In this document: positions 18,643-29,391 of the stretch, in pieces
How positions within the stretch are numbered: position 1 is the stretch's first letter
Layout of the letters: every line of letters begins with the position of its first letter
Source: Spirochaeta africana DSM 8902
Lineage (GTDB): Bacteria > Spirochaetota > Spirochaetia > DSM-27196 > DSM-8902
DNA: 64,000 nucleotides
Direction: 5' to 3'
Assembly (NCBI RefSeq): GCF_000242595.2
Contig: NC_017098.1
Coordinates: 1,612,001-1,676,000 of the forward strand
The notes under the pieces: generated by a model
What the model was told of the DNA's origin: nothing
Databases searched by the model: none
The model's input: the letters and a program-made list of their open reading frames with translations, nothing else
Translations under genes and position numbers: made by a program

Positions 18643-19586
18643 AACTGCTCACCCGGCGACAATCGGTCTACCTTGGCCTGATCCTGGCGATAGCGGGGGC
18701 ACTGTTTCTTGGCAGAGCCGGACATACTGAACACCCGCCAGTGGTCAGCGGGCTCCGGCATGAGGATATCCACCGGCTTGAACTCCAGCAGTCCGCTGCG
18801 CAGCCTGTCCAGCTTGTTCGCGAGCAGGATGACTGGCAGTTGGAGGTTAACGGGCAGAGATATCCAGCCCGTGCATCGCGGGTGGACGACATGGTAGAGC
18901 TGCTGCTGCAGCTGCGGCAGCAGCGCGAGGTGTCCCGTTCGGCTGCGGGTGGATTCGGGCTTGATGCCCCGGTGGTGGTTACCCTGCATGATTCCCGGCA
19001 GCAGCAGACGCAGATTTTATTCGGACATCTGAGCGAAGCCCGGGGTGAGCTGTATCTGCAAAAGGGACCCGACAGTCCGGTGATTGCAGGTGATGCCGCG
19101 ATATCATTCTACCTTGAACAGCGCTATCCCTACTGGCAGGATCGGCGTCCTGGTGCATCCCTGGCCGATGCTGATATCCGTCGTGTCGGGCTGAGGATCA
19201 CGGGTGAACCACCTGAACTGGACTGGGAGCTGCCGACAGAGGGGTACATCCTTGAGCAGCAGCGAGACGCACGGGAATCCTTCTGGCTATATACACAGGA
19301 TCCCCAGCGAGAACTGGATCAGATGGCAGTGCGACAGATGATCGCTGCAGGTGTCCGGGTAGAGGCAGCCGGCTTGGTGCGCGACAGCCTCGATGCACCC
19401 TGGCTTGAACTGTTTTACGAGACCTCTTCTGGCGGTCGCGAACGAATGATGATCGGAACCCCGGATGAACAGGGGCGGCTGCGGCTATGGCGTGAAGGAG
19501 ATCTGGTTTACCTGCTGGAGCGTTCGGCTGCAGAGAGAATTATTCGTCCGCTGGCAAATCTGATGGTTCCAGCGAACGCACGATAA
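18639..19586 (+). CDS. DUF4340-domain membrane-anchored protein
   Basis: Overlaps the GldG-like gene as ATGA and is clearly in the same operon. The 315-residue product has one N-terminal anchor (YLGLILAIAGALFL) and a beta-rich extracytoplasmic region with the DUF4340 pattern (IHRLELQQ, WQLEVNGQRYPARASRVDDMVELLLQL, GLDAPVVVTLHD, LLFGHLS-like QILFGHLSEARGELYLQ). Such proteins regularly follow GldG-like genes and are presumed accessory parts of the exporter. The 3' end overlaps the convergent next gene by 47 bases. Confidence 0.78.
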   Translation: MKLLTRRQSVYLGLILAIAGALFLGRAGHTEHPPVVSGLRHEDIHRLELQQSAAQPVQLVREQDDWQLEVNGQRYPARASRVDDMVELLLQLRQQREVSRSAAGGFGLDAPVVVTLHDSRQQQTQILFGHLSEARGELYLQKGPDSPVIAGDAAISFYLEQRYPYWQDRRPGASLADADIRRVGLRITGEPPELDWELPTEGYILEQQRDARESFWLYTQDPQRELDQMAVRQMIAAGVRVEAAGLVRDSLDAPWLELFYETSSGGRERMMIGTPDEQGRLRLWREGDLVYLLERSAAERIIRPLANLMVPANAR

Positions 19587-20748
19587 ACTGGCGATACCGC
19601 TGGGGATCCGGGTGGAAACCTACCACTGCCTCGCCCGAGGTACGCGCCCGTTTGAGCGCCTGGCGGGCCTCGTTCAGCAATCGATCGGCGTCCAGCAGCC
19701 GGCCGTTGCGGGAAACAGCTCCGGCCAGCGCGGTCTCGGGCCATTGCTCGACCGCGTGCCGCCCCTCCCTGATAGCACGGTGGATATCGGTGTCGGGCAG
19801 GATAACCGCAAACACGTCATGCCCAAGTTCGCCGATCAGGTCACGATAGCCAAAGCGTTCCAGCAGCCAGTCTATCGGCGTGCTGTCATCCAGGGGAAAC
19901 AGCTGCAGCAGCAGCAGACTTACATCCTTTTCCTGGGAAGCCGAGAGATCAAGCTCGGTCTGCAGTCGCAACCGGATATCACCATACTGTTCGAACCTGA
20001 CACCGTCTTCCGGCTCTGGCAACTGCTCCGGATTTGCCGGCGGGATCGACAGCGCCAACCCTTCCGGCTCTGACCCAACGGTTTCCGGCTGCCAGGGGGA
20101 ATCATCAGGAGTAGCTGCAATATCCGGTGCATCGGCTGCTTCGGGTTTCGCAGCGGGTGTGTCCGGCGACGGATAAACGTGATCAGGCTCTGCGGACGAC
20201 GCGCCCCCTGCAAACCGGTCTATTTTTTCCAGGTTGCGTCGGCTGCGCTGCGGCAGGGTTGTCAGAAACAATACCAGCAGGAAAACGCTGTAGGCCGCAG
20301 TCGTGATGCCCAGCAGTCGGATCGACCGCAGTATAGCCTCGCCTTGCAGGGTGTTCTGTTGCATGGATACCGCAAACTGCGCCTCCCGCCCAAGCAGGGT
20401 AACACTGCGACCGCTGAACTCGGCGCGACGGACCTCCCCCAGAATCTGCGGGCTGCGCGACCAGCCAAACACGGTTTCACCGGTTGCCGCCTCGATCCGC
20501 ACCCGGTGCAGTGACGGGGTTAACGCGGCCTGCCGATACAACCAGTCAAGGAAATCCTGGTAGGCCTGGCGCGGGTTATCGCTGTCCTGCCCCAGCTGTC
20601 GCTGCCACTGTTGTACCAGCTGGCGGTAGAGTGTGTCCCCCTCCTGAATCAGGCGCGCACGCTCGGTACTCAGGATATACATTGGTCCGAAAACTGCAAT
20701 GACCAGAACGAGGCAGGTTACAACAACAAAGACAGTGCGGGATTTCAT
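19540..20748 (-). CDS. Two-helix membrane protein with degenerate GGDEF-like domain
   Basis: The 402-residue product has two membrane helices (VFVVVTCLVLVIAVFGPMYIL and, near residue 160, AAYSVFLLVLFLTTL) flanking a small extracytoplasmic sensor-like region. A Pro/Glu/Asp-rich linker follows, then a C-terminal domain with RFEQYGDIRLRLQTEL and GELGHDVFAVILPDTDIHRA. The latter looks like the GG(D/E)EF hairpin of diguanylate cyclases but reads GHDVF. Catalytic residues therefore seem lost, and the domain, if correctly assigned, would be regulatory rather than cyclase-active. No Shine-Dalgarno site is seen; TATACT lies seven bases before the ATG. It overlaps the DUF4340 gene tail-to-tail. Confidence 0.6.
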   Translation of the reverse strand: MKSRTVFVVVTCLVLVIAVFGPMYILSTERARLIQEGDTLYRQLVQQWQRQLGQDSDNPRQAYQDFLDWLYRQAALTPSLHRVRIEAATGETVFGWSRSPQILGEVRRAEFSGRSVTLLGREAQFAVSMQQNTLQGEAILRSIRLLGITTAAYSVFLLVLFLTTLPQRSRRNLEKIDRFAGGASSAEPDHVYPSPDTPAAKPEAADAPDIAATPDDSPWQPETVGSEPEGLALSIPPANPEQLPEPEDGVRFEQYGDIRLRLQTELDLSASQEKDVSLLLLQLFPLDDSTPIDWLLERFGYRDLIGELGHDVFAVILPDTDIHRAIREGRHAVEQWPETALAGAVSRNGRLLDADRLLNEARQALKRARTSGEAVVGFHPDPQRYRQFIVRSLEPSDLPADE

Positions 20749-20755
20749 GGTTTTC

Positions 20756-20784
20756 AGTATAACCGGAATTGGAAATTATTCCAC
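20756..20784 (-). promoter_or_regulatory. Candidate leaderless promoter
   Basis: TATACT (20756-20761) ends seven bases before the ATG at 20748. A weak GTGGAA at 20779-20784 is at the 17-base spacing and overlaps the stop codon of the upstream gene. The -10 element is good, the -35 poor. Confidence 0.35.
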
Positions 20785-22458
20785 TGTTTCGTATTCCCGA
20801 TTGGAATCCAGGGTTTTTTGTACTTCTTCTATGGTCCATTCACGGGTTCTCAGCAGCAGTTCAGGACCGGACAGCGAGTCGGGCAGGGTATGCCGGAAAT
20901 GAGAGGCTGTCGGGAACAGGGTGTACCATAACTCAAGTTGCTGCCGATCCTGCTCGGTAAAGAAACGGGTAAGGTCCTGGCGCGGTATCTCCAGCTGGGT
21001 GAGTCCCTCGGCATATTCGATCAGAAAGCTGCGCCAGCGCTCATGGTGTGCCTGCAGGCTGAACAGCGGGGCTTCGACCGATTCGGGCGGCAGGTCGTCC
21101 GGAAACTGTGGTCCGAACGGGGAATTGTTCCGCAGTCTGATCGGCAGGCCGGCGGCCAGCTGTTGTAAACGCTCCCGGTAGCCAAGAAGAGTAGGAGTGG
21201 TGTACACCGTTGACTCATCCTGGTAATGGGCAACGGTGTCTGACCGCCCATAGACGAAATCCGCCATTACCGATTCGCTTGAGCTGAAACGATCCTCCCG
21301 GGCACGAAAATACGAGTACAGATAGGTATCGCTGGCGTAGGCTGTACCGTCAGGGTAGCTGTAGTCTGCCCCGAACAACTCAATCTGCCTGGCGCCGATT
21401 GCGTTGGCCAGTGACACCGCGGCGTGGGTAACATTCCCCCCTGAGGTGTCGATGTGGGGAAACCCTTGCAGTCGGCTTTGCACATACTGGGAAAAGGGGT
21501 GGCCACTGGAAAAGAACAGCGGTCGTTTCAGCTGTCTGGTCAAGGTTGGCGGGCTGGCAAGATCAAACAGCACCGGTATCTCGGGTGGCAGAGATACAAA
21601 AAAATGATGGTAGGTGATCAGTTGGCAGTCTATTGACAGTACTATGTCTGGCAGGATGTCACGGGATCGCAGCCAGGGCAGGGCGGTGTCGGTAGCAATG
21701 CAGTAGTGCGAGTTGCGTATGCGGCGAATTCGGCCCACCTGGTCATCAAGGCTTGGGCCGGCGGCGATAATCATGACCTTTCGCTGCGGCGGGATGGTGA
21801 GCTTTCCGCTGCCGGTACGGGCCAGGTTGGCCATGGTATTACTGATCCAGCGGCGCCCGAAGCGTGCCTGTACCGAATAATCCTCCGAGACAATCTCGAC
21901 TGCGTGACGAAATGAATCCATAGCAGTCTGGAATTCCGCATGCAGCAGTGCGGTACGTGAACGCAGCACCAGGGTGCGGATATCTCCCATAACAGCCGGG
22001 ATGTATCGCTCCAGAATATAATCATGGATGTCCCCGGCCCCAGGGTCTATCAGAATCCTGACCCGGGAATCTATAAAGATATCGCTCACATCGATATGGG
22101 AAAGAACAGTCCTGAGTGTGCTGTAACTGAAATCGACAATCAGGATAGACTCAATGCGATTATTGCGCAGCAGCTCACGAACATGATAGCCGCCGCCGAA
22201 CCCCAGTACAATTACAAACCCGCCGGCATGACACTGCTCGGCCATACGACTGGCTTCCCTGACAGGTTCGAATCGGGAATGCAGCGGGCGGCTGCGATCA
22301 CCGTGCCGTACGGCAGGAATAGGCAACCCGTTTCTGGACGTGACAATCTCCAGTGCGGGATCGGTGTGTGCCTCGCCAATCTCTCCTGACTCCATCAGAT
22401 TGAATCCCGATAGTGCCAACAGGTTTTTGGATAATGTCTCGTTGGGGAAATCACGCAT
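20776..22458 (-). CDS. DUF115 (Maf/MptE-like) protein 2
   Basis: The ATG at 22458 has GGAG seven bases upstream and overlaps the end of the previous gene by 8 bases, giving 560 residues; an upstream in-frame ATG at 22536 lies inside that gene. It carries the DUF115 core: FVIVLGFGGGYHVRELL, then VMIIAAGPSLDDQVGRIR, YCIATDTALPWLRSRDILPDIVLSID, NVTHAAVSLANAIGARQIELFGADYSY. DUF115 proteins include the motility accessory factors that glycosylate flagellin with nonulosonic acids in Campylobacter, Helicobacter and Aeromonas. Treponema flagellins are known to be glycosylated, so a flagellin or surface glycosyltransferase role is reasonable but inferred. A second, divergent DUF115 gene lies immediately upstream. 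Confidence 0.8.
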   Translation of the reverse strand: MRDFPNETLSKNLLALSGFNLMESGEIGEAHTDPALEIVTSRNGLPIPAVRHGDRSRPLHSRFEPVREASRMAEQCHAGGFVIVLGFGGGYHVRELLRNNRIESILIVDFSYSTLRTVLSHIDVSDIFIDSRVRILIDPGAGDIHDYILERYIPAVMGDIRTLVLRSRTALLHAEFQTAMDSFRHAVEIVSEDYSVQARFGRRWISNTMANLARTGSGKLTIPPQRKVMIIAAGPSLDDQVGRIRRIRNSHYCIATDTALPWLRSRDILPDIVLSIDCQLITYHHFFVSLPPEIPVLFDLASPPTLTRQLKRPLFFSSGHPFSQYVQSRLQGFPHIDTSGGNVTHAAVSLANAIGARQIELFGADYSYPDGTAYASDTYLYSYFRAREDRFSSSESVMADFVYGRSDTVAHYQDESTVYTTPTLLGYRERLQQLAAGLPIRLRNNSPFGPQFPDDLPPESVEAPLFSLQAHHERWRSFLIEYAEGLTQLEIPRQDLTRFFTEQDRQQLELWYTLFPTASHFRHTLPDSLSGPELLLRTREWTIEEVQKTLDSNREYETVE

Positions 22459-23896
22459 CCAGATACTCCATGAGCCGCTGATAGACAGTGTTCCATGCGG
22501 CAGCAGCTGCGTCAATCCCGCCTCTTTCTGCTGCACAGGCAGTCAACTGTGGCAGTGAGGTGTGGATAAGCAGATCCAGATCTGGCCCGCCGGCCATCCT
22601 GCCGGCTTCGCCACAGCTGCGCACATACTCGGCAATCCGCTGGTCAAAGCCCTGCAGGGTGCGCCGAACCGCGGAACGCGAGATCTTTCGGGAGTTCAAC
22701 TGTATCCGGGGCACAGTTGTGCCGGGATCCGCGAGATACTCGGCAATCCCGGATGCCGGCAGTACATCGCTGCTGCCACGGGCTCCGCAGATCCGGCTCG
22801 CATCGAGTGCGACCAGCTGCCGAAACCAGTCGCGGTAGGTCTGCAGGGCTGCCGATCCGGAATCTGCCCGCAGAAAACTGGTGGATTCAAGTGGTCTGAG
22901 GCGATCGGTGGAACTCAGCTGATGTATAATCGCGTTGTGGTTTGCGCAATGGGTGCGTACCCCCTGGGACCGAAGATCCAGCCCGGCACACAGCAGCCGG
23001 CTGCTACCGAGGGTGTGGAGCACGGTAACCGCTGCAGCGGTTACCGTGCCAGCCGCCGGGGTGTCAGCTGTCAGTGCCTGGGGGAAAAAGGCGGCCTCAA
23101 GGGTACGGCTGTCACCAAAGAAATAGCGCGGGTTGGCCACCCCGGTGGGAATCATGGCGTGTGGATATGCCAGCACAGGAACCCCGGCAGCATGCCCGCG
23201 TACCAGTGGTGAGAGCAATATGCCGGCATAATGCCCGGCATCGGCCGTAATAATCAGGTCAGGAACCAGATCGGCCTGCAGCAGCGGGATGAGCGCAGAA
23301 GACACCGCTACCAGACAGTATCGGGATCGGTAGCGTACAAGCTCGGGGAGAAGTAGATCCAGACTGGGTCCCGGGGCTGCCAGTACTGGCGGCAACTGCG
23401 GCAGGTACAGCTGTTGATCCTGGCTCTGCACCGCATTGCGAACGGAATTGCGAAGGTGTCGGCGTCCAAGAGAGCCAATGGTAACCAGCTCCATCTGCAG
23501 CTGGCGTATGATATGCTGCAGCAGCTGCAGATAGTCCGGCTGGCGTGCTGCCAGGATTCTGCAGCCGGGTTTCCAGTACAGTACCTGCATCCCGATCAGA
23601 TCCTGGGGATGCAGGCGGGAATGAAGAAATCCTGCCAGATCCTGATTCGCTGCCTGGACCTCGGTTGCTGCATACCCATCACGCGGCAGATCCGGTGTAG
23701 CCGGGATACAGAGCACACGTACGCCCGGGAAGCACTGCAGGCATGCCTGCGCCAGATACCCGAAACCGGTACCGACAAGCAGTACGGTTCTGGGTGGATG
23801 TGACAACTGGGAGGTTATAAACCGCTCGGCTTGAGCCTGCGGATTATAGGCGGAATGCAGTGATACCCCGTGAACCAGGAAGCGAGAACGATCCAT
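22451..23896 (-). CDS. DUF115 (Maf/MptE-like) protein 1
   Basis: The ATG at 23896 overlaps the upstream stop by one base (TAATG), giving 481 residues; a longer frame to 24031 lies within the upstream gene. It shares the DUF115 order with its neighbour: TVLLVGTGFGYLAQACL, PVLAAPGPSLDLLLPELVRY, CLVAVSSALIPLLQADLVPDLIITADAGHYAG and VLHTLGSSRLLCAGLDL. It is more divergent than protein 2: the usual AAGPSL reads AAPGPSL, and the metal/ligand motif reads TADAGHY. The tandem may be an active enzyme plus partner, or two transferases of different specificity. Confidence 0.72.
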   Translation of the reverse strand: MDRSRFLVHGVSLHSAYNPQAQAERFITSQLSHPPRTVLLVGTGFGYLAQACLQCFPGVRVLCIPATPDLPRDGYAATEVQAANQDLAGFLHSRLHPQDLIGMQVLYWKPGCRILAARQPDYLQLLQHIIRQLQMELVTIGSLGRRHLRNSVRNAVQSQDQQLYLPQLPPVLAAPGPSLDLLLPELVRYRSRYCLVAVSSALIPLLQADLVPDLIITADAGHYAGILLSPLVRGHAAGVPVLAYPHAMIPTGVANPRYFFGDSRTLEAAFFPQALTADTPAAGTVTAAAVTVLHTLGSSRLLCAGLDLRSQGVRTHCANHNAIIHQLSSTDRLRPLESTSFLRADSGSAALQTYRDWFRQLVALDASRICGARGSSDVLPASGIAEYLADPGTTVPRIQLNSRKISRSAVRRTLQGFDQRIAEYVRSCGEAGRMAGGPDLDLLIHTSLPQLTACAAERGGIDAAAAAWNTVYQRLMEYLDA

Positions 23897-24897
23897 TATA
23901 CCAGGTTGCGGCACAGGGTCGAGTAGCGGTGCTGGGACAGTTCCGGATACAGCCTGCGCCAGACATTGGTCAGTGCACGGCAAACCGTATCCGGATCCAG
24001 GTCCTGGTGTGTTATCCCTACCGAAAGGCATGTTTCAGCCGCATCATAGGCGACCGAACCGATATGTTTCAATGCGGCTGCGGCCCCTACCGCCAGCTCA
24101 TCCACCAGCACGGCGGCATCGGAGTAAGGAATGCTGGCGGTGAGTTCCTGCACCAATGGTTCGAGCTGAATTTGCAGGGTCGATGCCGGATTGGTTTGCT
24201 GGAGCTGCTCGCTGGAAGTATGTACTACCGGGGGCTGGCTGCCCAGCAGGCAGCGGTAATGGTGCTGATACAAGAGATCACTCAGCAGCGGCGATAACAG
24301 ACTGAGTATCAGTGCGGTAAGCTGGGTAGCGCGGGTTTTGGCCTCTGAAAGGAATACCAGCAGCACCCCATAGCTGCGTTCAACATCATCTTCGGGAGCT
24401 CTGCCGCGCAGCGGCAGCAGCAGCAGCTGTCGGGTATCGTCCCACAGGGATGTACTGCAGTAGCGACGCAATACCGAAAGCTCTTCCGGTGTGTGGATTC
24501 CGGCGCCGTTATCAAAGCTGCCAAAAATTTCCAGGAAGCGTGCTTCGGAAAAACGAAGTTTGCGCGGGGTGGTAGCATCCAGTCCGCAGTGGGCTGCCGC
24601 AGAGTATCGCGAAAAGGCAGCGTCCGCCAGGATAAAGGTCATCCGCTCCAGTTTGAGTCGGGAGCATAGCATATGCAATGCATGATACGCAGCAAATCTG
24701 CCGGTTGGCAGCGATTGCAGCCCGGTGCTTAACTCGGCGACCAGAACCTCGGGCTGGCGAACCGCAGGGGTCCGGTGTTCCTGCAAGAGAGATCGAATGG
24801 ATGGATGATCATGTTGTAATTGCGCGGCACGCTGCATCAGCGAGCCGCCGCTTTCCACGTGCCCGGTGTTCTGCAGCACCTTTTGCATCAGCCCCAT
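23896..24897 (-). CDS. Hypothetical cytoplasmic protein in the DUF115 cluster
   Basis: No family recognised. The 333-residue product has no signal peptide or membrane helix. AAGGAG lies six bases before its ATG. The middle (about 85-210: LKLERMTFILADAAFSRYSAAA, LLLLPLRGRAPEDDVERSYGVLLVFLSEAK) has the alternating pattern of a GAF-like sensory fold, which is a guess. It sits 27 bases after the acidic protein gene and overlaps the first DUF115 gene by one base, so all four genes are probably one transcription unit. Confidence 0.65.
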   Translation of the reverse strand: MGLMQKVLQNTGHVESGGSLMQRAAQLQHDHPSIRSLLQEHRTPAVRQPEVLVAELSTGLQSLPTGRFAAYHALHMLCSRLKLERMTFILADAAFSRYSAAAHCGLDATTPRKLRFSEARFLEIFGSFDNGAGIHTPEELSVLRRYCSTSLWDDTRQLLLLPLRGRAPEDDVERSYGVLLVFLSEAKTRATQLTALILSLLSPLLSDLLYQHHYRCLLGSQPPVVHTSSEQLQQTNPASTLQIQLEPLVQELTASIPYSDAAVLVDELAVGAAAALKHIGSVAYDAAETCLSVGITHQDLDPDTVCRALTNVWRRLYPELSQHRYSTLCRNLV

Positions 24898-24924
24898 TAA
24901 AACTCCTTGGCGCGGCCGAAAAGT

Positions 24925-27549
24925 TTACAGACCCAGTTCGTCGAACAGTCGCTTGTAGACCGCAAAATGTTCGCTGCGGGCAAACTCCTGGATTTTCTCT
25001 TCTGGCAGGCTCTCCAGTAACTGATCCATATAACTCAGTATCGAGCGGATCTCATCGCGCAGACCGCTGGGAAGGTTGTCTTCCTCCTCGTCGGCCTCCG
25101 TATATGGCTGGGCAGCCTGGGGAGCAGGAGCGGCCTGATCAGACGCTGCTGACGGCGCAGATTCCTCATCGGAAAGCTCTTTCGGGGGTTCTTGCGCAGA
25201 TGTCAGCTCATCCGGCACCGATGTATCGGCAGAAAAATCCGGTACATCTGCCGGCTCATCTATCTCCAGTTCATCAAGTTCTTCGTTCAGCTCGTCGTCA
25301 TCACCGAGCTCTGCCTTGTAGCTGTCGATATCCTCAAGTTCATCGTCGATGTCGAGGCTGGCCATGCTCTCGATAGCATCCTCACTGTCATCTGCAAAAT
25401 CCATGCCGCCAGAGGATGCTGCAGGGATTTCGTCGTCTTCGTCGTCACCCAGATAGATTTCGTCCTCGTCATGTTCATCTTCGTCGGCGGCTATCGGCTC
25501 AAGCGAGATTTCCTGGACAGGCTCGGTTTCGGTCGCATCCTCGGTCGGCATGTCTTCGAAAGAGAGTTTGTCTTCCATCAGGGTGCCTTCATCGGCAGAA
25601 GACTCCTCAAAATCTGCCGCAGCTTCATCATCAGCGGTTGCCTGGACGGTGGTATCCTCGGCCTCTGTATCCTCTTCGGCAGTATCGTGACCGATCTCGT
25701 CCGGCTCAAAGCTGAAATCCTCTTCATACGAGGATGCATCGGCCGACTCGGTGGGTATCTCGATGACTTCGTCATCACCCTCGTCAAGCTCATCCTCGGG
25801 CTGCGCGGAGGTCCCGGTCTGCTGGGTGAACTCAGCGGTGTTCAGGATGTTATCCAGTTCGTCACCGGTCAAGGCGATGGTTTCATCATCATCGTCCTCG
25901 AAAAATCCATGCGCATCAGTATCGATATCGGCATCGGCAGCAGCAGGACCAGCGGTTGTCTCTTCCTCGGCAGCCGTCGGCGATTCAACTGCTGCGTATG
26001 GAGCGGATTCGTCGGGTGTTGTATCGGCAACGGGGGAGGCTGGTGCAGGGGCTGGCTCTGCACCAGGAACCGAACGCAGGGAAGAAAGCTCCTGTTTCAG
26101 GGCTGCCAGTTCCTCACGAATACTGTGCAGCTCCTTTTCTATACCGCTGAATGCCTCGGTCGGGATAGTCGCAGCAGCTGCCGGCTCGGCGGTTGGCTCA
26201 TCTGCAAGCAGCTGTTCGTCAGTATCCTCTACCGGCGGATTGACATACGGTTCTTCCTTGATCTCAATATCAAGCTCGTCCGGGGTAAAATCATGCTCGT
26301 TATGATCCGGTTCATCATCCTCGGCCGGGGGTTCCATATCAAAATCCAGGGCATCGGTGGAGGAGTCTGCGTAATCCTGTTCCACGCTCCAGTCATCCTC
26401 TTCATCCCCGATAGTGATGTCGTCAATGTCAGGAGTAACGGCAGGAGCATCGGAATCTTCCGATGCCGGCTGCTCTGCTGATTCCTCACCGGCGTCCTCG
26501 ATAAAGTCGTCAGCAGATACCTCGGCAAAATCCAGGATATCGTCCTCCAGTTCTGCGGTATCCTCTGCCTCATCTCCGGCGTCGAACGGCTGAACCTCAT
26601 CCTCTGATGCCTGGTGGTCGGCTGGTGATTCCGGGCCTTCCTCTGCGGAAACTCCCTGGGTGGTAATCTCTTCGGCTTCAGTATCGAAAAAATCATCCAG
26701 ATCGATCTCTTCGCCAATCCCTGATGCCTGGGATACCGGTTCCTGGGCTGACTGAGGCTTCTGGGTCTCGATTTCGGGGGGGAGCTCGTACGGGTCTTCA
26801 TCGAAGTCGATATCGATGTCGAGGAACTCGTCCTCGTCGTCGTCATCCTCGTCAACGTATTCTTCCTGAACCGGTGCAGCAGCCTCATCGTCGTCGAAAA
26901 AGTCATCGAGGCTTACCTCGGTGGTATCGTCCGAGTCCTGATCGGGGCTGACCGGTGCTGCCTCGGCAGTATCGGCGGGAGTGTCATCAGTGTCGGGTTC
27001 ATCAAATGCATCAATGTCCAGGGTTTCCATGTCGTCCTCGTCTGATTCAAGTTCTGTAAAATCTGCTGTTTCGGTATCCTGTGCAGCAGCGGGGGTAGTG
27101 TCAGCTGCCGGTGCCGCGAGTTCTATCTCTTCTTCTGGGTTGTCAAGGTCGTCAATGTCGAAAGCCAGGTCATCATCATCGCCAGGGATTACCAGATCCG
27201 GCTTTTCAAGGGAAGGATACTCATCGGCAGTTGCCTCAGCCTGATTGCTGCCATGTGCTACATCCTGCAGCAGATCCTCTTCCTCGTCCGAGATTGCCGA
27301 GGTGTCGTCATCAAACTGCATCGCTTCGTCGTCGTCAGTATCGATGCTGATGTCCAGATCATTTTCGAAGTCGGCATCGATATCCTGCATGTCCTGCATA
27401 CCGCTGTCGGCAAAGTTGTTTTCATCATCGAACACGTCTTCGGGCTCACCGGTGACCCATACACCGTATTCCTCGAGTTCCTCCTGACCGGTATCTGCCG
27501 AATCAAACTCTTCTTCCGGGAGGTCTTCAAAGGTATCATCAAAAGCCAT
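24925..27549 (-). CDS. Very acidic 874-residue protein with conserved C-terminal tail
   Basis: Starts at 27549 with AGGAG seven bases upstream. Almost the whole length is low-complexity Asp/Glu with Ser, Ala and Pro, repeatedly in DDFFD-type blocks (SLDDFFDDDEA, DLDDFFDTEAEE). A short leucine-heptad coiled coil lies near residues 480-505 (IEKELHSIREELAALKQELSSL). Only the last 50 or so residues look folded: LRDEIRSILSYMDQLLESLPEEKIQEFARSEHF, then YKRLFDELGL. No signal peptide. The tail may be a docking module and the acidic body an extended, highly charged spacer or chaperone-like scaffold. Long frames on the other strand are by-products of the GAN codon bias. First gene of the DUF115 cluster. 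Confidence 0.8.
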   Translation of the reverse strand: MAFDDTFEDLPEEEFDSADTGQEELEEYGVWVTGEPEDVFDDENNFADSGMQDMQDIDADFENDLDISIDTDDDEAMQFDDDTSAISDEEEDLLQDVAHGSNQAEATADEYPSLEKPDLVIPGDDDDLAFDIDDLDNPEEEIELAAPAADTTPAAAQDTETADFTELESDEDDMETLDIDAFDEPDTDDTPADTAEAAPVSPDQDSDDTTEVSLDDFFDDDEAAAPVQEEYVDEDDDDEDEFLDIDIDFDEDPYELPPEIETQKPQSAQEPVSQASGIGEEIDLDDFFDTEAEEITTQGVSAEEGPESPADHQASEDEVQPFDAGDEAEDTAELEDDILDFAEVSADDFIEDAGEESAEQPASEDSDAPAVTPDIDDITIGDEEDDWSVEQDYADSSTDALDFDMEPPAEDDEPDHNEHDFTPDELDIEIKEEPYVNPPVEDTDEQLLADEPTAEPAAAATIPTEAFSGIEKELHSIREELAALKQELSSLRSVPGAEPAPAPASPVADTTPDESAPYAAVESPTAAEEETTAGPAAADADIDTDAHGFFEDDDDETIALTGDELDNILNTAEFTQQTGTSAQPEDELDEGDDEVIEIPTESADASSYEEDFSFEPDEIGHDTAEEDTEAEDTTVQATADDEAAADFEESSADEGTLMEDKLSFEDMPTEDATETEPVQEISLEPIAADEDEHDEDEIYLGDDEDDEIPAASSGGMDFADDSEDAIESMASLDIDDELEDIDSYKAELGDDDELNEELDELEIDEPADVPDFSADTSVPDELTSAQEPPKELSDEESAPSAASDQAAPAPQAAQPYTEADEEEDNLPSGLRDEIRSILSYMDQLLESLPEEKIQEFARSEHFAVYKRLFDELGL

Positions 27550-27623
27550 GGAACTCTCCTACATAACAAACGGTACTGCTGTACTGAATATCGGAACAGC
27601 AATATGAACCCTTAACTACTAAG

Positions 27624-27650
27624 AGTATAATCCGCATACAGGCTTGTCAA
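27624..27650 (-). promoter_or_regulatory. Sigma-70-like promoter of the acidic protein/DUF115 cluster
   Basis: A consensus TTGACA (27645-27650) and TATACT (27624-27629) face the acidic protein gene, with a 15-base spacer, about 75 bases before its start. The rest of the 144-base divergent space contains a plus-strand TATAAT (27658-27663) with only a weak CATACA 17 bases upstream, which may serve the FtsB-like gene. Confidence 0.5.
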
Positions 27651-27693
27651 CTCACGATATAATTAAGTTCCGTGTCATGTGCACCGAGAAGTA

Positions 27694-28176
27694 ATGGAGA
27701 TGCGTTACCTGAACTTTTTGTTAGCAGCAGCTGCTGTATGCGCAGCGTTTTTCTGTTTCGAAGTTGTGTGGGGCGAGAGTGGTGTGCTCGCGTATAACGA
27801 GCGTCGTCAGGTGCTCGAGAAGCTGCAGAATAATATTGCTGAACTCCAACAGTATAACCAGGCTTTGCTGGCGGATCTGCACCTGTTGCGCGAGGATGAA
27901 TCCTTCCTGTTGCGGTACGCTGCCCAGGCTGGCTACTTTCGCGAGGATCAGGGGCTGGTGAAAACCGAGGGCAACTACGCTATCAGTCACAACTGGGAGA
28001 TCGGTCGTATCCAGTATATCCCGCCCGCACGATCGGGAGGGAGGCCGGTGCGAGCCGGTGCGGCGTTCATAGTCGGCGTGGGAGTGTATCTGATGAGCGC
28101 CGGATTTCGCCGTGAACCCCAGCGTCGCCAGCTGCGTCTCGAGATCGGGGGGCAGTCAATTCATCGGGCTGTCTGA
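27694..28176 (+). CDS. FtsB/DivIC-like septum formation initiator protein
   Basis: The start at 27694 gives 160 residues; ATG 27700 is an alternative. One N-terminal membrane helix (LNFLLAAAAVCAAFFCFEVVW) is followed by a short coiled coil (NERRQVLEKLQNNIAELQQYNQALLADLHLL) and the family's EDESFLLRYAAQAGYF box, matching the usual -EiAR.-lGyv-pgE of FtsB/DivIC. These proteins bridge FtsL and FtsQ in the division complex. A C-terminal extension of about 70 residues with a possible second hydrophobic segment (AAFIVGVGVYLMSAGF) is atypical of FtsB, which is near 100 residues. Confidence 0.75.
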   Translation: MEMRYLNFLLAAAAVCAAFFCFEVVWGESGVLAYNERRQVLEKLQNNIAELQQYNQALLADLHLLREDESFLLRYAAQAGYFREDQGLVKTEGNYAISHNWEIGRIQYIPPARSGGRPVRAGAAFIVGVGVYLMSAGFRREPQRRQLRLEIGGQSIHRAV

Positions 28177-28182
28177 ATTATG

Positions 28183-29391
28183 TTACTGCCTGACAACAGA
28201 TCTCAGCACGGTGTAGGAAGGCAGTTCCTGATCGGTTGTCAGAAAACCCGGCTTTCCGTGATATAACGAGTCCACTATCTTCCCGGACTCATCCTGCAGG
28301 GTGCCCTGCAGCTGCAGCGGCACGGGATTCCCCGGAGCAACCGCCTCTATACCATCCGCCAATGAGAATCTGTTTTTTACCGCCACCGAATAGCGTCCCC
28401 TGGTTTCGGTCTGGTACACAATCCCCATAAAACGCGGACCGTGCTGCGAGGGCGGTGTGCGCAGCTCCGGCTGGCCAAAATACATTCCGGTACTGTAGCC
28501 TCGGTGAGGCAGATCCAGCACCAGATCCCTGGCTTTACTGGCGGCGTCTATACAATCAGGGTTTGACAGGGCATCAAGCTGCAGTCGATAGGCCTGGGTA
28601 ACTGCGGCGACATAGTAGGCAGATTTCATCCTGCCCTCGATTTTCAGGCTGTGAACACCGGCATCCTGCATGGCCGGTAGATGGTCGATCATCGACATGT
28701 CCTCGGGGGAGAAAATAGTCGAAAAGCCGTCGTGTTCCTCTACCCGCAGCGTGGCTTCCGGGCGCTTCTTCTCCTCGAACTCTCGATACTGCCAGCGACA
28801 GCTGTGGGTACATTCGCCGTGATTGGCACTGCGACCTGTCAACCAGCTGGATATCAGGCAACGCCCGGAGTAGGCGATGCACACCGCGCCATGCGCAAAC
28901 ACCTCAATCTCGAGCTCAGGCAGTTCCTGTTTGATAGCGGCAATCTCGGCCAGGGTGAGTTCACGGGCAGCAACAATCCGGCTGAACCCCAGGTCCTGAT
29001 ACACCCTGGCAGCCCTGCTGTTGGTGCAGTTGGCCTGGGTACTCAGATGCAGCTCTGTCTGCGGAAATGCCTGACGCAAGGCTGCCGCTACACCAAGATC
29101 ACTGACAATAAAGGCATCTGCAGGGGTTGAACCGATGCGTGCGGCGAGTTCCTGCAGGACAGCGATATCCCGTTCATGCAGGTAGCGATTAATGGCCAGG
29201 TAGAGTTTCCGGGGTTTAGAGGTACGCCAGTACGAGAGTGCAGCCGGCAGCTGCTCCAGCTGTTCTGCAGTCCAGCTCTCTGCCCCGGCGCGCAGGGACA
29301 GCCCCGGCAGTCCCATGTAGACTGCATCAGCACCAAAGGCGAAGGCAATATTCAGTTTTTCCAGATTCCCTGCGGGAGCAAGTAGTTCCAT
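28183..29391 (-). CDS. U32-family peptidase-like tRNA/rRNA hydroxylation protein (TrhP/YegQ/RlhA type)
   Basis: A 402-residue U32 protein. It opens with ELLAPAGNLEKLNIAFAFGADAVYMGLPGLSLR, the TIM-barrel start typical of the family, and carries LSTQANCTNSRAARVYQDLGFSRIVAARELTL and the signature EVFAHGAVCIAYSGRCLISSWL. The cysteines in GRC and GECTHSCRW are those expected to bind an Fe-S cluster. SLKIEGRMKSAYYVAAV follows. Relatives TrhP and RlhA take part in hydroxylation of tRNA wobble uridine and 23S rRNA C2501 in Escherichia coli; which role applies here is uncertain. Three bases separate it from the phosphodiesterase gene upstream. Confidence 0.85.
   Translation of the reverse strand: MELLAPAGNLEKLNIAFAFGADAVYMGLPGLSLRAGAESWTAEQLEQLPAALSYWRTSKPRKLYLAINRYLHERDIAVLQELAARIGSTPADAFIVSDLGVAAALRQAFPQTELHLSTQANCTNSRAARVYQDLGFSRIVAARELTLAEIAAIKQELPELEIEVFAHGAVCIAYSGRCLISSWLTGRSANHGECTHSCRWQYREFEEKKRPEATLRVEEHDGFSTIFSPEDMSMIDHLPAMQDAGVHSLKIEGRMKSAYYVAAVTQAYRLQLDALSNPDCIDAASKARDLVLDLPHRGYSTGMYFGQPELRTPPSQHGPRFMGIVYQTETRGRYSVAVKNRFSLADGIEAVAPGNPVPLQLQGTLQDESGKIVDSLYHGKPGFLTTDQELPSYTVLRSVVRQ

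Follow-up and report, generated by a model that had tools for sequence, protein, structure and literature searches.

The genome of Spirochaeta africana DSM 8902 contains, on the minus strand of a 64,000-nucleotide window (the whole stretch of DNA that was analysed; contig NC_017098.1, positions 1,612,001 to 1,676,000), a tightly packed block of five genes, as judged from the positions of its open reading frames. We refer to these genes as ACID, P2, D1, D2, and GG, and the block that they form is strongly and deeply conserved in flagellated spirochaetes. We judge it evenly balanced whether the very acidic product of the first gene is a disordered hub on which D1, and hence a pair of Maf-type proteins, docks near a membrane partner for the nonulosonic-acid glycosylation of flagellin before its export. 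Our analysis suggests that the block is a variation on the known Maf-type systems, one in which a candidate docking motif can be tested. A literature search by title and the opening of the abstract returned no paper on the ACID–P2–D1–D2–GG block and nothing on how flagellin glycosylation is organised in spirochaetes.

The five-gene block and its relatives

ACID (24925..27549, 874 residues), P2 (23896..24897), D1 (22451..23896), and D2 (20776..22458) were confirmed, all on the minus strand, at the positions that a preliminary description of this DNA had given. The block does not end there, however: that description had left out a fifth gene, GG (19540..20748, 402 residues), which is conserved with the others. 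The intergenic gaps between ACID and P2 and between D2 and GG are 27 nt each, the stop codon of P2 and the start codon of D1 overlap as TAATG (with the ATG at 23896 as the best candidate start of D1), and D1 and D2 overlap by 8 nt. For D2 the best candidate start is the ATG at 22458, whose methionine is a nearly invariant column of the alignment. Judged from gene spacing only, the small gaps and overlaps suggest that the five genes are carried on one transcript. The same description had assigned a single promoter to the genes, but a scan of positions 19000–28200 for sigma-70 sites yielded none upstream of ACID (five sites in all versus 4.5 expected). Upstream of ACID and divergent from it lies an FtsB/DivIC-like gene (plus strand, 27679..28176; Pfam DivIC, 39.6 bits), a conserved neighbour. 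Positions 28183–29391 of the window encode a U32 family protein whose nearest models are of the TrhP type of tRNA hydroxylase, below the curated cut-off, and at 1573–1722 a 9-base unit is repeated in tandem (16.7 copies, with 87% matches).

A search with full-length ACID produced matches in 36 of the 41 genomes of the order, S. africana included. Counts of gene neighbourhoods in named relatives rest on the best 80 of 290 that were recovered in a scan with the C-terminal tail of ACID, and an ACID frame was recognised in 79 of these 80. Within the best 80 of 290, D1 and D2 both followed ACID in 58 of the 59 loci with at least 4.5 kb of downstream sequence, the reverse of what the preliminary description had said would refute it, namely relatives in which DUF115 genes never adjoin the acidic protein. 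GG followed in 49 of the 51 loci of this set with at least 7 kb downstream, and the divergent FtsB-like gene was present in 52 of the 53 with at least 1.2 kb upstream. P2, the most divergent member of the block, was recognised by a hidden Markov model (HMM) in 46 of 59. Treponema putidum (L122) and Brucepastera (L077) are among the relatives with the block, and the same five genes are present in a genome of 1,139,633 bp (G107).

The Maf-type proteins and the company they keep

The identification of D1 and D2 as DUF115/Maf-like proteins was borne out. Both exceeded the cut-off for the Pfam MptE-like family PF01973 (52.5 bits for D1 and 100.8 bits for D2 versus 34.6), and the profiles of both matched 5MU5, a Maf glycosyltransferase of Magnetospirillum (E 4.3e-19 for D2; E 2.7e-8 over about 50 residues for D1). 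The predicted model of D2 (pLDDT 89.6) likewise found 5MU5 in a Foldseek search (E 8e-18, the next matches being at 9e-5), with TM values of 0.56 and 0.51 and an rmsd of 8.7 over 675 columns. The D2 profile also matched a sialyltransferase weakly over 30 residues (E 0.003), and D2 scored 20.2 bits against the Maf N-terminal domain PF20157 (cut-off 23.5), over residues 106–154 only. From profiles, and in the case of D2 also from its predicted fold, we assign D1 and D2 as Maf-type proteins, D2 having a predicted Maf glycosyltransferase fold.

In a tree of 43 DUF115 proteins, D1, D2, and two further groups, D3 and D4, were separate from one another, each with support of at least 97 on both measures (100/97 for D1 and 100/99 for D2). 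In all three of the loci tested with Pfam (L059 8106–12283; L165 14684–18866; L122 1–2722), the genes directly upstream of D3 encode a penicillin-binding protein and a signal peptidase. D3 is about 9–14 kb from flhA in G065, G146, G080, G001, and G187, a proximity that holds for only two of the 14 genomes with a listed flhA. D4 follows a gene for a SurA-like rotamase in S. africana (L060 7443–10591) and, to judge from a like length and position, in other genomes as well. In G069 the order is a flagellin fragment, a gene of 489 codons, and D4, and the ACID gene pair is a convergent neighbour (L210 1–3653).

The other two members of the block resemble signalling proteins. P2 matched no Pfam family; the best match of its AlphaFold2 model (pLDDT 83.2) in the PDB was a GAF domain (3ci6_B, Z 16.7, rmsd 3.1, 161 residues aligned). 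The predicted GAF fold occupies residues ~45–220, leaving the C-terminal ~100 residues outside it. GG has N-terminal transmembrane segments, as judged by eye, and its profile matched GGDEF chains (5euh, E 5.6e-10). The catalytic GG[DE]EF motif of diguanylate cyclases was not seen in an alignment of 25 rows, and on this count GG is, by sequence, a degenerate GGDEF protein. In 13 of 29 sets of relatives a gene of ~290 codons on the opposite strand lies between D2 and GG (for example, L037 13378–14286 and L051 14647–15795); it is absent from this window.

We also examined co-occurrence in a sample of 296 genomes of the class, each at least 85% complete, in which kinship inflates all of the counts that follow. 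The ACID tail was found in 164 genomes, FlhA in 221, and DUF115 in 181. Each of the 164 tail-positive genomes had a single tail match and each had FlhA (164 of 164), and the tail was found in none of the 75 FlhA-negative genomes. DUF115 matches numbered exactly four in 126 of the 164 and were lacking in three. Family f25, which by inference is Borrelia-like, has FlhA and lacks both ACID and DUF115; a divergent tail profile run against Borrelia-like and FlhA-negative genomes gave, across 77 genomes, weak partial matches only (best E 0.0037).

The S. africana genome carries a nonulosonate synthase of the NeuB type. Counting as strong a best E below 1e-30, we found NeuB in 158 of the 164 tail-positive genomes, in 12 of the 14 FlhA-positive genomes that had DUF115 without a tail match, and in none of the 43 that had FlhA and neither ACID nor DUF115. 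The six ACID-positive genomes without strong NeuB were G023, G028, G048, G074, G101, and G187, the last of which is a single-contig genome with four DUF115 matches. Given the weakness of NeuB in these six and its strong presence in 12 of the 75 FlhA-negative genomes, NeuB is not specific to the ACID system; among flagellated genomes it goes with that system, and it has other uses too. With one genome taken per genus, ACID lay within 65 kb of flagellin genes in 5 of 15 genomes (1.3 expected) and other DUF115 genes did so in 6 of 15 (2.6 expected), a weak result in that the limit was set after the distances had been seen and many genome lengths were rounded.

Gene order alone is no proof of binding, and some of the neighbours could point to the cell wall instead: the FtsB-like gene, with its near-constant place beside ACID in the best 80 of 290 relatives (52 of 53 loci), and, at three loci, the penicillin-binding protein and signal peptidase directly upstream of D3. 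The block might then serve cell-wall growth or division, with D1 and D2 modifying a protein of the envelope or of division, which ACID would organise near the divisome. We consider this improbable, since ACID tracks FlhA and is missing from every one of the 75 FlhA-negative genomes. The argument is not decisive, however, because the 20 of those 75 genomes that were listed fall in only four families (f9, f10, f15, and f23).

Conserved islands in ACID and the match of MID to D1

ACID is extremely acidic, as had been reported from the window: aspartate and glutamate make up 36% of its residues and lysine and arginine 2%, for a net charge of −302. No Pfam or NCBIfam family matched it above cut-off, and it has no transmembrane-like stretch (best 19-residue hydropathy mean, 0.39). 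The protein is probably cytoplasmic and, to judge from its composition, intrinsically disordered. The preliminary description had credited it with one conserved C-terminal module. The tail is indeed conserved, but it is not the only such element, as an alignment of 63 full-length ACIDs (500 to 1403 residues, with an aspartate-plus-glutamate fraction of 0.27–0.41) revealed several islands, all given here by their minus-strand positions in the window. Nearest the N-terminus is the N-motif (residues 24–40, 27430..27480, ELEEYGVWVTGEPEDVF), a loose pattern of which is present in 60 of the 63. It is followed by weaker islands, such as EEEDLLQDV at residues 89–97 (27259..27285), by a conserved coiled-coil-like stretch at residues 464–496 (26062..26160) with a heptad pattern discerned by eye, and by a motif that we call MID (residues 545–580, 25810..25917), with the core DETIALTGDELDNILNTAEFT. 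The C-tail occupies residues 825–874 (24928..25077), and 22 of its 49 columns are invariant in 15 sequences. Across the 63 proteins the mean frequency of the residue found in the window was 0.76 in the C-tail and 0.67 in MID; outside the islands, where the body is unconserved, it was 0.12. A repeated SLDDFF-type motif of the window ACID was absent from all 32 of the other ACIDs tested and was dropped from consideration. ACIDs of family f26 (G058 and G094) have long runs of near-perfect EEPI/VEEPT-type repeats (L172 3–707; L209 10130–10906; L216 2577–4252).

The MID core resembles by eye the pattern of the CheY-binding N-terminus of FliM, which is L-S-x-x-E-I-D-x-L-L. We rejected a FliM-like reading of MID, as the MID profile matched the S. 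africana genome only once at E values up to 1, and as the presence of MID follows that of D1; the resemblance may be only a helix-capping pattern.

To what extent MID follows D1 was assessed with a position scoring matrix at a threshold of 12, which was used because an HMM had missed true copies of MID (in L092 and G131 the motif is present by eye), probably as a result of composition bias. The matrix was applied to 147 ACID loci, and 28 of them, truncated on the N side, were set aside. The 119 complete ACIDs that remained comprised 104 with a D1 hit, three without D1 in more than 3.5 kb of DNA, and 12 without D1 in less DNA than that, which were left uncounted. MID scored above 12 in 101 of the 104 and in none of the three; it was also present in all 12 of the uncounted ACIDs. 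These loci are redundant, some genomes being represented twice, and the number of unique ACIDs with D1 is 84, of which 81 have MID. As to the three misses beside a D1 hit, the hit in L210 proved in the tree to be D4, and L241 and L243 hold what appear by eye to be degenerate remnants of MID (scores of −1.3 versus −2.6 for shuffles and −4.7 versus −1.2, respectively). With L210 so corrected, MID is missing in five ACIDs that lack D1 (L167, L168, L169, L171, and L210); L168 is cut at the N side and covers the coil to the tail, and the other four are complete. The losses of MID fall in families f13, f16, and f18.

This coincidence, together with the conservation of the islands, bears on the plainest account of ACID, namely that it is an acidic chaperone or charge buffer that is co-regulated with its neighbours and docks nothing in particular. 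Such a role would fit the unconserved body and a length that varies from 500 to 1403 residues, and we regard it as very improbable for a protein whose tail and MID are strongly conserved and which goes without MID in genomes without D1.

A few genomes separate the members of the block from one another. MID, D1, D2, and GG are present in G053, which lacks a P2 gene and a recognisable tail, and this disfavours P2 as the partner of MID. G045 and G069 retain D2, D3, and D4 and lack both D1 and MID, and this disfavours D2; both genomes are 95% complete, and the missing D1 could be a gap. At the position of P2 these two genomes have a short gene of 158–160 codons, which an HMM identified as P2 in G045 alone. 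In G094 a divergent MID was seen by eye, and D1 and D2 are present. By these sequence comparisons MID follows D1 better than it follows P2 or D2, the separating cases being few: one genome in the case of P2 and two of one family in the case of D2.

Three further genomes have ACID and no DUF115 hit. P2, D1, and D2 are absent from G048 and G101, as is strong NeuB, and ACID still adjoins GG in both; these ACIDs have kept the coil and the tail and lack MID, and the N-motif is present in G048 (G101 is cut there). In G074 a short ACID has the N-motif, the coil, and the tail, again without MID, and GG is on another contig. The adjacency of ACID and GG in G048 and G101 implies that ACID is more than an accessory to Maf proteins. 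Thus, the idea of an acidic scaffold for Maf proteins, put forward in the preliminary description, gains from the near-universal adjacency and from the restriction of ACID, in the class sample, to genomes with FlhA, but not in the form of a mere Maf accessory. A role in glycosylation only would be wrong for the hub, which would have a second duty in flagellated spirochaetes.

These same genomes lend weight to the main rival to our interpretation, in which ACID and GG constitute a polar or membrane scaffold for flagellar placement or the organisation of the cell ends, with the Maf pair as a client that is missing from some lineages. ACID–GG persisting without the Maf pair, the short ACID of G074 that has lost only MID among these motifs, and the occurrence of ACID only with FlhA in the class sample would all be expected of such a scaffold. 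The fixed place of the Maf pair inside the block in 58 of 59 loci (among the best 80 of 290 relatives) and the conservation of MID would not, nor would the presence of GG without an adjoining ACID in genus g26 (L203, L204, and L205), most genomes of which have no clear ACID tail. On balance we think this rival unlikely, if not greatly so.

A candidate hub for flagellin modification

In the interpretation that we favour, the variable acidic body of ACID would be a flexible, highly charged tether, and its short fixed motifs would dock partners. MID would dock D1 and, through D1, the D1/D2 pair of Maf-type glycosyltransferases. The N-motif, the coiled coil, and the C-tail would serve self-assembly and the binding of partners that include the membrane-bound GG, and P2 and GG, with their GAF and degenerate GGDEF domains, would be likely signal inputs. 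The station so formed would modify flagellin (FlaB) in the cytoplasm, before its export to the periplasm. Further observations also run against this hub-and-glycosylation interpretation: f25 has FlhA without ACID or DUF115, GG occurs without an adjoining ACID in g26, and the MID scores of L241 and L243 are close to those of shuffled sequences. A bolder version, which we offer tentatively as a possibility short of probable, holds that ACID is a polyvalent, possibly phase-separating scaffold of a membrane-attached glycosylation factory, in which sugar transfer by the Maf pair is coupled to the export of periplasmic flagella and controlled by two sensor-like proteins, the GAF protein and the degenerate GGDEF protein, with MID as the dedicated docking site for D1, absent from lineages without D1.

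Several known systems have features in common with the block. Glycosylation of a treponemal flagellin, on which the preliminary description had relied, is on record: a published account states that FlaB of T. denticola bears a glycan of 450.2 Da that is essential for filament assembly and motility (PMC9481697, citing Kurniyati 2017). We infer that D1 and D2 make this glycan. In Aeromonas, flagellin is reported to be glycosylated in a Maf-dependent way before it is bound by its chaperone and exported (PMC4065374). The likeness of the block to Maf systems lies in the matches of D1 and D2 to 5MU5, by profile for both and by predicted fold for D2, and in the NeuB-type synthase of the same genome. 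It differs from them in that two Maf-type proteins stand in tandem with acidic, GAF, and degenerate GGDEF membrane proteins, and in that the genomes mostly have four DUF115 proteins, in four orthologous groups. FlmG of Caulobacter is described as a modular flagellin glycosyltransferase (PMC7591256). The block would resemble FlmG, in principle only, in the cytoplasmic O-glycosylation of flagellin with dedicated substrate specificity, but in spirochaetes recruitment would fall to a protein distinct from the enzyme.

The closest parallels to ACID itself may be PopZ and FimV/HubP. These are acidic, disordered bacterial hubs with a long acidic body and with short, conserved modules at the ends through which clients are recruited, and by that description ACID, with its own long acidic body and short conserved modules, is like them. 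It differs in having no transmembrane-like stretch and in adjoining genes for Maf-type proteins.

Finally, we note what the block may mean for spirochaetes. A small set of genes and a motif of roughly 20 residues with a predicted partner make the question of how glycosylation is organised in these organisms directly testable. If our interpretation is correct, ACID would be a new addition to the disordered acidic hubs of bacteria, and the block suggests that spirochaetes have a dedicated scaffold for the modification of their internal flagella.
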